From: Ianthella basta
Lineage: Eukaryota > Porifera > Demospongiae > Verongiida > Ianthellidae
Assembly: GCA_964019415.1 (NCBI GenBank)
Contig: OZ025872.1
Location: forward strand, 2,350,699 to 2,414,698
Length of the DNA: 64,000 nt
Reading direction: 5' to 3'
In this document: positions 5,411 through 31,101 of the stretch, one piece after another
Position numbering within the stretch: the stretch's first letter is position 1
Layout of the letters: each line of letters begins with the position of its first letter
Made by a program: the position numbers and the translations under genes
The notes under the pieces: model-generated
The model's database searches: none
What the model saw: the letters and a program-made list of their open reading frames with translations, nothing else
What the model was told of the DNA's origin: nothing

Positions 5411-8400
5411 ATGGAGAACAGGTCAGACAAGCCAAAAAATGAGCCTAAGAACAAGTCAGGACAGAAACGGCAAGTCCCTTCTCCTTCAGATCACGCTGTG
5501 AGCCGTTCTGGACAGGAGCAACATGTCCCTTCTCCTTCGGATCGCACTTTGAGCAGCTCAGGACAGGAGCAACATGTCCCTTCTCCTTCGGGTCACACTG
5601 TGAGCAGCTCAGGACGGGAGCAACATGTCCCTTCTCCTTCGGGTCACACTGTGAGCAGCTCAGGACGGGAGCAACATGTCTTTTCTCCTTCGGACCACAC
5701 TGTAGACAAACCACAGGAGCGGGTTGTACACCCTAACAAGGTCAGTGCGTGCACATGTACATGTGTGTTATGTTTACGTGTACCTCCCAATACCAGAGAC
5801 AGTCTAGCTAGCCAGTTACACACTATACTTAGTCTTGAGTAGGAAGGTTCCTTCCTGGACCCATTGCAGGATTGGTATCTCTATGTATAATTGCTTGCAG
5901 TCTAGCTATATACAACGGACAGGTTAAGTGCTCTGCAGCTAGTTGGCTCGTAGCTGGAGTTTAAATAAACAGATGAACCTGACATGGCCTCCACGTCATA
6001 GGATGGAGGTGATTTAAGTCTCTTCTTTACACGTTTTGCAGAAATTTGCAACTTATCTAAAATTATAACCTTATAGCTTTTGTACAGTGTGATGTCACAT
6101 TCGGCTCTCGGAAACTTGAAATCCAGTCTACCCAAACTGTTTGCTAGTCATTAAGTGGTATTCTTCACTATCCCTGTGTGTTGAGAACTCTGTACAATGC
6201 TGTGCTGAGTGAGGTGGTGCATGATTAAGAGTGGCCAGTAAACTAGTACAACGTCTTTAGATCATTGACACCTATAGCTGATCAGTAATATGAAGGTATT
6301 GTGGCCCAGTCCACACTGAGACTTGTCCTTAGCAAGTAGTGAGAGCACCCTACTGCTGCTGGAGTATGGGGTGCTCCCTCAGCTTGGTTACTTGTAAAAG
6401 GGCCAGTTAGTAGACCACTGGGGAAGTAGGTAGCAGCATCTCATACACCAGAAAGTGGAACTCTTGAAACAATACTGCAGCAAGGTCACCTACCACCTAT
6501 GAAAGGGGTTCTAGACTACTACGACCCTTTCACACGGACTGCTTAATCCGGAATCGTGATCCGGATTGAATCCGGGTTCGACACGAATTAGTGTTCACAC
6601 GGCAACCTCATGATTGGGTACCAAACCCGAGTTTTAAAAAAAATGGTGGACAATCACCACATTTTTGATAGCATTTTCTCGCTGCGCTGGAGAGCCTATG
6701 CCTGACCAAGCTAGAAGACGACTGACAGCAGTAGCGCAATGTGCATGAAGCACAATCCGCAGGTTCTAAGTGTGCATCCAACCCATGTGTAAGTCACCTG
6801 GCTCACCCTCGATCTTACCGAAAAGAATATCATTTCCATACGATCTCAGTAGCTCTGTGCAGATAGTTACATCCAACTATCTGCCCAAAAGAGTCTTGAC
6901 CATTCATCTGCCACGTCTACTCACACGTCGCCATTTCTAACCCAGATAAATGTGAGTCGAACCACCTCGCAAGCAGGGTTAGAACCCGGATGATAACCCG
7001 GATTTATCTGGTTCAACCCAGATTTGACCCAGATTTGACCCCAAATGTGAACGCGCTAACCCAGGTTCATGTGAAAAGGGTGGTAGAGTACTCTTGCTGC
7101 CACTCAAGTAGGGATGTGGGTGTGTAGGTGGGACACCACCTTGGGCTGAGTGCCAGGTGTTGAATGTATTCATTGGTGTACTGTACCATTATTCATAGTT
7201 CACACCTGACAGACAAGTGCACAGTTTGTAGAGAGGCAGGTCCACAGGCACTACCCACCTTCCTGTGTGAGACCTCACTTATCTAGCATGCTAGACCCTC
7301 TCCACTATTTGCCTAGTCCACTGCATTGTGGTCTCACCCAGTGGGTGTCTGTTCTAGTAATGTATTTGTGCCTAATATGTCTAATGTACTGGGCTCATAT
7401 TGCAATGTAATGTGGTGTTCCTCTCAGAGGGTCCACTTGGTGAAGACAGGCAGTCACTGTGCTACTGTGTGTACCCCATACAGGAGATTGAGGAGGAATT
7501 GCGGGTTGCGGCCAAAAAAGGAGACCTAAACAAAGTGAAGGAGTTAGTAGGGCAGGGATGCCCTGTGAATGTGAAGAATGAGGTAACTGCACTTGCGCAC
7601 ATTACAACACAATTTATGTCCAACATAGCGCATTGAAATTCAGAGTGCTTTCATTTGTACTTATTTACATTTCCAATTTAACTCCTGTGTTTGCATTGTG
7701 ACTTTTGATTAGAATTGTTATCAGCACATGTACACTGCTTCTGCTTTACTTCATGCATGTACAGGATGGTTTCACTCCGCTTATCTTGGCCGCATTGAAT
7801 GGCCACACAGAGGTGGCTAACTATCTGTTGGAAAATGGAAGTAGCATTGAAGAAAAGGACAATGTAAGTTGCTAGTTGCAAGTTGTAAGCATTTCATAGG
7901 AGCATGTACATACATACTTTTGTGTTCCAGATGAAACTCTCAAATGTAATGAAAAGTGAAATGTGGCCTAACAAGATGGTCAACTGGCTGCTTTTGAGCA
8001 TGCCATTTAGATATTCCCTGACTATATCATAGGTCTCTCAACTTTGGATACCTTTAGGACAGCTTGGAACAGTCCCAAGTGCCGTGATTAAAGAGATGCA
8101 CTTATTATAGATGCCATTTTATTACATCTCTTTGTCACACAAATGTATGAACTGTGCATGGGTATTTGTAATCATCTCTATTCTGGTTTGGACAGGGAAG
8201 GTAGGTTCCTTCACACATTTCTTCCTGAGTGTAACTATCCTTTCAAAACCCTACACACGGGCCTGTAATTAATACAATTACTAGGGTGCTATTATCTATA
8301 TTGTCCTGATTACAAAGGTAGTTTTATTTCAAAGATATGTAGTTTTGTTTGCAATTCTAGCAGGACAGTTGGCTCTGGTCTGATTTGAGAGGTTCCTGAT

Positions 8401-30800: not shown

Positions 30801-31101
30801 GTATAGCTTTAGGTTCCTAGCTGTCACTGTCAAGCTGTTTGTGCATTTATAACTATGCAAATGGATCCCTGGAGGCTTTTTGGGCCCAGGCCTATTTCAA
30901 ATTTGGCCCCTTGAGAAGGATTGTAGTCAAATAATGGGAACCCTCACACTGGGGCCTGGGACAAACTGCATGCTCTCTTTACCCCCCTCTTGCCAGCACT
31001 GCATGTGCACTTGCTGTTCTCTCACACACACTGCGTGCCGTGTGTTTATCACTCATTCATATTCCCCCGCTGTTTTCCATGCAGGGAATCCGACTAAGTG
31101 A
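24618..31101 (+). CDS. CARD-like / ZU5 / Death-domain protein, about 13 coding exons
   Basis: Likely coding exons: 24618-24690, 24928-25128, 25539-25724, 26701-26817, 27224-27544, 27989-28036, 28108-~28664, 28772-28909, 29161-29407, 29549-29695, 29936-30031, 30304-30561, 31085-31101. Phases agree across junctions. Exons 2-3 form helices of CARD type (VLTSEECRRVW, then LVRSVVLKPPG). Exon 5 is a Ser/Tyr/Arg-rich linker (SSDSEYSRSSRATS). Exon 7 has the ZU5 core (GGTIFLEVPPGAIT). Exons 8-9 may be UPA-like, which is unsure. Exon 12 is a Death domain (TLPRTWQTVVEAVQL) and the last exon adds NPTK. ZU5 followed by Death is the plan of UNC5, PIDD and ankyrins; no transmembrane segment is seen, so a cytoplasmic adaptor like PIDD is more likely. 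The donor of the ZU5 exon (28658, 28664) is uncertain. If the Death exon is read through its donor, the protein instead ends at 30602. Confidence 0.75.
25800..26010. mobile_element. MITE copy, CAGTGGAACCTG family (inverted relative to 52762)
   Basis: GAACCTGTCTAAGATGG near the left and CTGTCTTAGACAGATTCCAC with CACTGTA at the right form inverted ends. Inside are CCACCTCTCTAATACAGCC and CTGGCCCCAAATAGCACTAA, shared with copies at 27566-27750 and 52762-53065. Intron of the CARD/ZU5/Death gene. Confidence 0.8.
26337..26393. repeat. (TG)n microsatellite
   Basis: About 28 TG units in an intron of the CARD/ZU5/Death gene. Confidence 0.97.
26916..26946. repeat. (CA)n microsatellite
   Basis: Short CA run in the same gene; one of the few with CA on the transcribed-sense strand. 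Confidence 0.9.
27566..27750. mobile_element. MITE copy, CAGTGGAACCTG family
   Basis: Ends GTCTTAGACAGGTTCCACTG at the right, followed by TA; the left terminus is eroded. Internal CCACCTCTCTAAATCAGCC and CCCCAAATAGCACTGAC match the copy at 25800. Confidence 0.78.
27811..27881 (+). other. Optional 71-bp cassette exon (frame-shifting)
   Basis: It has a good acceptor (GCATGTGCAG) and a consensus donor (AAAG|GTGAGT) and is open in one frame, but its 71 bp would shift the next exon into a frame that stops (CACCTGTAG at about 28022-28030). The flanking exons join in frame without it. Confidence 0.45.

Follow-up and report, generated by a model that had tools for sequence, protein, structure and literature searches.

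Two co-oriented genes lie side by side on the plus strand of a 64,000-nucleotide stretch of the genome of the sponge Ianthella basta (C5:2350699-2414698 of the 209-Mb genome; the whole stretch is referred to hereafter as the window). Gene 1 (5411-24366) runs ankyrin repeats, a likely ROC-COR region and Death, and gene 2 (24618-30602) runs helical ("CARD-like") segments, a serine-rich linker, ZU5, a UPA-like region and a probable second Death domain. An earlier, sequence-only reading of this DNA had proposed the two as a linked signalling pair. We consider it probable that an expanded Roco-like sensor gene stands here beside an expanded ZU5-UPA-Death adaptor gene, and that the two have been co-copied as a block of an array on C5.

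Architecture of gene 1

Gene 1 was modelled by scripted, phase-checked chaining of exons with GT-AG borders into a single open frame, yielding 21 exons and a protein of ~1.55 kaa (1546 residues scanned) that begins at ATG 5411; the end of the first exon and the final exon are less sure, the latter (24350-24366, encoding GKQTS and a stop) having been set by eye since the scripted choice lacked a stop codon. The gene 1 stop (24364-24366) and the gene 2 ATG (24618) are separated by 251 bases (24367-24617), bearing out the gene order, shared strand and spacing that the sequence-only reading had described. A single fused gene was considered and rejected: both of the other array copies that were read retain the gene 1 stop, the gene 2 start and a TATAAA stretch in the intergenic gap (in copy A the gene 1 stop lies earlier).

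Twelve ankyrin exons span 7484-19482 (7484-7582, 7765-7863, 9445-9540, 10027-10230, 13551-13649, 14137-14340, 15830-16033, 16944-17045, 17841-17939, 18213-18416, 18724-18825 and 19279-19482, all on the plus strand). Each encodes 32-34 or 68 codons and is symmetric, with phase 0 at both ends in 12/12, and the ankyrin repeats that had been proposed for this gene are matched in the model by Pfam Ank_2 (E 5e-113); one more, partial repeat is held by 19770-19863. Protein kinase is absent among the Pfam matches of the 1546-residue model. An internal tandem duplication of ~4.1 kb (8144-14556; 8144-10443 against 12258-14556, 96.5% identical) doubled ankyrin exons, and a third, partial copy lies at 15364-16232.

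The ankyrin exons are followed by a single ROC-COR exon (20893-23033, plus strand), in which GTPase motifs precede a COR-like region. Roc G-domains are defined by a P-loop, a DxGG motif and a T/NxxD motif, and the exon carries GPPATGKS, DTGGQP and VGTFKD in that order. The COR assignment, which is less firm, comes through one relative, L066, a C5 locus found via Pfam COR-A, which shares 27% identity with the exon over 314 aa (98 bits), carries the motifs GPPQVGKT, DSGGQ and VGTHLD, and itself scores 2.3e-5 against COR-A, under Pfam's own cut-off; a PDB search for ROC-COR gave no credible match. We treat the exon as likely, not proven, ROC-COR: of the earlier assignment, the Roc P-loop stands, with DTGGQP and VGTFKD after it, and the COR part is reached via L066. 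A separate observation concerns C20, where a cluster of Pfam-recognised Roc and COR-A genes (3.93-4.36 Mb) forms a group apart from the ROC-COR family of the window.

Gene 2 and its lost splice donor

Two exons near the front of gene 2 (24928-25128 and 25539-25724) are members of large exon families and are conserved within them. The CARD-like domain that the sequence-only reading placed here found no support: Pfam, the PDB and profile comparison returned no credible CARD match for these exons, and of the 110 Pfam CARD matches listed for this genome, none falls inside the window. Downstream lie a small, uncertain exon (~26702-26818 by eye; scripted choice 26727-26783), the serine-rich linker exon (27224-27544) and the ZU5 exon (28108-28694). 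The ZU5 call is supported through relatives: at a threshold of E 0.1, Pfam ZU5 is matched by 10 of 16 family members, with 5.9e-4 the lowest value, and the window copy itself reaches 0.055, under cut-off; the profile of this exon gave no credible match in the PDB. Two further exons (28772-28909 and 29161-29406), both conserved and placed between ZU5 and Death, are termed UPA-like by position and family and not by Pfam, a less firm assignment; the second, scanned alone, had no Pfam match. A self-cleaving ZU5 was tried as a candidate and rejected, as neither HFS nor SFS occurs in the ZU5 and UPA-like exons of the window (the UPA part holds TFS); HWS is present in 2/16 family ZU5 exons.

The splice donor that follows ZU5 differs between the window and its closest copies (A and B, see below). 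At 28695 (within 28683-28698, plus strand), copies A and B have the native donor GTGAGT, where the window has ATGAGT; the corresponding residues are V-S-I in 11/11 other aligned paralogs and M-S-I in the window. Left unspliced, the window gene 2 model comprises 489 residues and lacks UPA and Death. Among the three copies, only the window has an in-frame GT 12 bases upstream of the lost donor; window gene 2 would reach its Death domain only by using a shifted donor.

The donor loss and the truncated unspliced model could mean that the duplicate in the window is decaying, its pair being non-functional even if A and B work. Extra fragments on both sides of the pair fit such an account: a ROC-COR exon fragment in more than one frame lies upstream (2523-2848) and an extra copy of the gene 2 Death exon (88%) lies downstream (38178-38468), both on the plus strand. 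Decay is nevertheless the least probable of the alternatives we weighed, given that the window-only GT preserves the frame, the downstream exons remain open and the pairwise ratios of nonsynonymous to synonymous substitution (dN/dS) reveal no clear relaxation.

Death 1 and a probable Death 2, of different subfamilies

The Death domain exon of gene 1 (Death 1, 23764-24048, plus strand) is identified through its relatives, as the sequence-only reading had supposed it to be a Death domain: Pfam Death is matched by 4 of 17 family members (lowest E 4.3e-7), the window copy not being one of them at E 0.1, the family profile aligns to Pfam-Death exons at 94.8% probability (E 4.9e-8), and in the PDB the 17-member profile best matches the Death domain of CRADD (E 0.034). 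An earlier 7-member profile had found no Death match in the PDB, and one member with an in-frame stop was excluded from later alignments. The Death 1 protein is identical in the three C5 copies though divergence among their ROC-COR exons reaches 8%, an identity that strong constraint or gene conversion could explain. Further Death 1 exons, with identities to that of gene 1 of up to 91%, occur on C22 (2.34-2.46 Mb; L041 and L042), with CARD-like exons nearby in both stretches read; among the matches listed, there is no ROC-COR on C22.

For gene 2 (Death 2, 30303-30602, plus strand, TAA at 30600-30602) the call is weaker and again runs via relatives: one matches Pfam at E 0.016, the profile reaches 63.9%, and three Death 2 family matches coincide with Pfam Death matches, on C9 and C20; the window exon alone has neither a Pfam nor a PDB match. 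The sequence-only reading had carried the locus to 31101, a position approached solely if a tiny final exon (~31085-31097), which would add three residues, is spliced on. Death 1 and Death 2 belong to different subfamilies (profile probability 27%).

Expanded families and the C5 array unit

The exons of both genes belong to large families. The ROC-COR exon has at least 65 matches in the genome, 56 of them of at least 600 codons (62/306 candidates scored). Pfam Death, the ZU5 exon, Death 1 and Death 2 each have at least 150 matches (150 candidates scored of 437, 249, 518 and 712, respectively), as does one CARD-like exon (150/397 scored); the other has at least 127 (150/325 scored). Neighbour counts given below rest on the matches listed, such that an apparent gap may be a diverged, unlisted neighbour. 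Since both families are hugely duplicated, the side-by-side placing of the two genes appears to be mainly a consequence of duplication, not proof of a private pair.

The pair is present in the same order three times on C5, at 2.00, 2.13 and 2.37 Mb, with ROC-COR 92-97% identical, ZU5 94% and several ankyrin exons lower. Beyond this triplication, DNA of the junction (24351-25130), in part or whole, lies within 6 kb downstream of 21/56 full-length ROC-COR copies when all 53 listed junction matches are used, and all 21 belong to a group of 26 that are at least 80% identical. In the two junctions that were read, the gene 1 stop is followed by TATAAA, ATGGCCGA and an exon like the second of gene 2. 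A protein search placed such a second-exon-like exon within 6 kb downstream of 10/56 ROC-COR copies, all of them close relatives on C5 (shuffle mean 1.3; 0/2000 shuffles reach 10), 7 of the 10 having no listed ZU5. Upstream, a gene-1-type ankyrin module lies within 8 kb of 17/18 C5 ROC-COR copies, counting the best 25 of 150 ankyrin matches (at least 73% identity). The C5 array unit consists of an ankyrin-ROC-COR gene and, after it, the beginning of a gene-2-like gene, and among these units a listed ZU5 within 35 kb accompanies the window and its two twins only. The array copies descend from one another, and their arrangement is therefore inherited by duplication and is not independent evidence of joint function; likewise the 10/56 shuffle test, which counts duplication-related copies, demonstrates linkage, not selection.

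Linkage to ZU5 itself was also evaluated as support for the pair, and was rejected as not above shuffles (positions displaced by up to 300 kb) among the listed copies. A listed ZU5 lies within 15 kb downstream of 4/56 full-length ROC-COR copies (the C5 triplication and one on C9), and four or more such pairs arose in 501/2000 trials; within 35 kb on either side the count is 9/57 (one partial copy added) against a shuffle mean of 7.7, reached or exceeded in 686/2000. The ROC-COR exon is absent at six other ZU5 loci read over 20-30 kb. On C9, five of seven ROC-COR copies examined (near 3.93-4.08 Mb and 6.93-7.11 Mb) have a co-oriented ZU5 22-27 kb upstream, the reverse of the window order.

The Death domains found beside ZU5 bear on whether the pairing could be exclusive. 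A Death 1 type exon lies 0.6-6 kb downstream of 15/150 listed ZU5 exons (upstream control 4, opposite-strand control 2) and a Death 2 type exon downstream of 16/150 (controls 1 and 0), no ZU5 exon among the 150 having both. The ZU5 genes thus seem to use the Death 1 type too, and any pairing of Death domains would be many-to-many.

These data frame the proposal that the genes form a dedicated sensor-adaptor pair, in which the gene 1 Death domain binds that of gene 2 and linkage is kept by joint work. In its favour, the genes are linked, co-oriented and 251 bp apart, both are under purifying selection in three copies, a gene-2-like exon follows 10/56 ROC-COR genes, and the best PDB profile match of Death 1 is CRADD, a known partner of PIDD. 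The linked copies are not independent, however; ZU5 follows ROC-COR at no more than the chance frequency given above; and the two Death domains differ in subfamily, have at least 150 matches each and share no places among the matches listed. We judge a dedicated pair unlikely. What survives of the earlier claim of a linked pair is a co-oriented unit copied several times on C5, the specific pair with ZU5 not being conserved; its private Death-Death match gains no support from these counts, and a private pair is possible but unsupported.

Purifying selection and clustered ankyrin turnover

Pairwise dN/dS was computed among three copies, the window (W), A and B. ROC-COR gave 0.23-0.26, the CARD-like exons 0.33-0.41, ZU5 0.20-0.34, the UPA-like exons 0.24-0.47, Death 2 0.15-0.46 and seven ankyrin exons 0.45-0.56; the range of 0.15-0.56 over domain exons in three copies identifies them as coding. 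Across its 94 codons, Death 1 had zero amino-acid changes and no more than one silent change, and the linker exon gave ~1.1 (two comparisons with synonymous changes). The three copies are mosaics, with a W-B dS of 0.16 for ROC-COR and 0.02 for Death 1, and so no single age was derived.

Within the ankyrin array, seven copies of a 66-codon module could be compared (one further module of copy A, at 9907, was missed by the scripted pattern). Changes, of which there are minimally 24, concentrate at three codons (2, 34 and 10, with 6, 5 and 4 different residues, respectively), and equal clustering arose in 1/100000 random placings; pooled over the module, pN/pS is 0.90, with no excess for the module as a whole. 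Anchored on the GxTxLHxA motif, these codons correspond to positions 5, 3 and 13 of the 33-residue repeat. Their spacing agrees with that of contact residues of a designed ankyrin protein (46, 48, 56, 57, 78, 79, 81 and 89, at randomised positions) as given in the available part of PMC3602593. Of the observations made here, this turnover speaks most strongly for a sensor with a changing binding face.

Remainder of the window

Downstream of the pair, 33263-37013 consists of head-to-tail, near-identical blocks with similar open frames at 33918, 34855, 35792 and 36729 (937 bases apart), picked up in part by a tandem repeat finder. From 39446 to 58536 the window holds ordinary neighbour genes by Pfam: FYVE (39446-41239, minus strand), ribosomal S12 (41861-42298, minus), NF-YA (43182-43604, plus), forkhead (49323-49820, minus), RCC1 (51846-52100 and 53522-53884, plus) and a Tc5/CENP-B-like DNA-binding domain (58129-58536, minus).

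A possible Roco-based receptor family

The domain layout suggests how such genes could operate. From it we infer ligand sensing, GTP switching, Death-Death contact and a signalling output, as well as an immune role. The ankyrin array of gene 1 would bind a ligand, ROC-COR would be the switch and the C-terminal Death domain the output; ankyrin ligand binding together with GTP-dependent ROC-COR dimerisation may cluster the Death domains, and the cluster would then draw on a large set of interchangeable Death partners. ZU5-UPA might hold gene 2, if it is involved, closed until Death clustering; in layout, gene 2 is like the C-terminal half of PIDD, or like UNC5CL, preceded by additional helical segments. 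The domain logic, a ROC-COR and Death sensor with a ZU5-UPA-Death adaptor, is reasonable, the specific pair of the sequence-only reading being unsupported.

We suggest, tentatively, that these genes may be animal Roco-based innate receptors, forming a large, recently amplified repertoire that diversifies in an NLR-like manner via copying of symmetric ankyrin exons and changes at target contacts, its arrays carrying the start of the adaptor gene within the same repeat unit. An alternative is that they are scaffolding or developmental genes, not immune, like ankyrins (ankyrin repeats-ZU5-UPA-Death) and UNC5 in other animals. The recent amplification to many members and the clustered sensor changes stand against scaffolding, such amplification being unusual for single-copy scaffolds, and we find this alternative doubtful, even with ZU5-UPA common to UNC5, PIDD and ankyrins (PMC3210808, in the part available).

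Several results weigh against our preferred reading, that of an expanded Roco-like sensor gene beside an expanded adaptor gene. Both gene models were built from genomic sequence alone. Pfam matched neither Roc nor COR in the window ROC-COR exon, and at the window-type ROC-COR copies there are none of the 24 Pfam COR-A matches of the genome and none of its listed Pfam Roc matches. When profiles were compared with a single canonical ROC-COR gene from this genome, the landmarks were collinear but the score was non-significant (E 0.02-0.09 with a four-member profile, probability <3%). A listed type-1 Death exon lies within 5 kb downstream of only 15/56 ROC-COR copies and a listed type-2 of 0/56, so that Death may not be a constant part of ROC-COR genes. 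The immune role, lastly, would follow by analogy.

Most of what is known of Roco proteins comes from LRRK2 and DAPK1, and it offers few clues to the ligands of their repeats. Dozens of related ROC-COR copies with fast-changing ankyrin exons provide a natural series on what the ROC-COR switch senses, and the same series bears on whether animal Roco proteins can be a diversifying receptor family. Where gene families have expanded this much, being neighbours says little by itself about whether two genes are partners.

Comparison with known systems

Titles and abstract openings of the papers listed revealed no publication on a Roco expansion in sponges, nor any on this pair, most subscription papers being outside the search. 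Gene 2 is like PIDD, UNC5, UNC5CL and CARD8-NLRP1 in having ZU5, UPA-like exons and then a probable Death domain, and unlike PIDD, NLRP1 and CARD8 in that its window ZU5 and UPA-like exons lack the HFS or SFS motif, described as one of self-cleavage in the available text of PMC3210808.

Large death-fold repertoires have precedents in sponges. According to the accessible portion of PMC8195603, Amphimedon encodes 357 proteins that share one TRADD-N type, and the majority of them carry death-fold domains; this NCOA6-type TRADD-N/Death-like expansion resembles the families described here as a lineage-specific set of hundreds of sponge death-fold proteins with ankyrins among their commonest partners; it is defined by TRADD-N. 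Dysidea avara has 230 NACHT genes, of which 126 are NLRs (PMC12909245, as far as that source was available).

Gene 1 shares ankyrin repeats, a likely ROC-COR and a C-terminal Death domain, in identical order, with the DAPK1 group. That group is marked by Death and by a kinase ahead of ROC-COR (PMC6337361, in the part available), whereas the gene 1 model has no kinase match, its ROC-COR lies beyond Pfam and it is present in dozens of copies. Brown-algal LRR-ROCO genes, in which leucine-rich repeats (LRR) lie on duplicated and shuffled exons and which have been proposed as immune receptors (PMC11378527, in the excerpt available), are alike in carrying sensor repeats on repeated exons; on the same excerpt, the layout there is LRR-ROCO and that here is ankyrin. 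In other animals, Trichoplax among them, ROCO proteins likewise combine ROC-COR and repeats with a death-fold domain, Death or CARD; the present family is set apart from these by its ankyrin exons and by at least 56 full-length ROC-COR exons in one genome.

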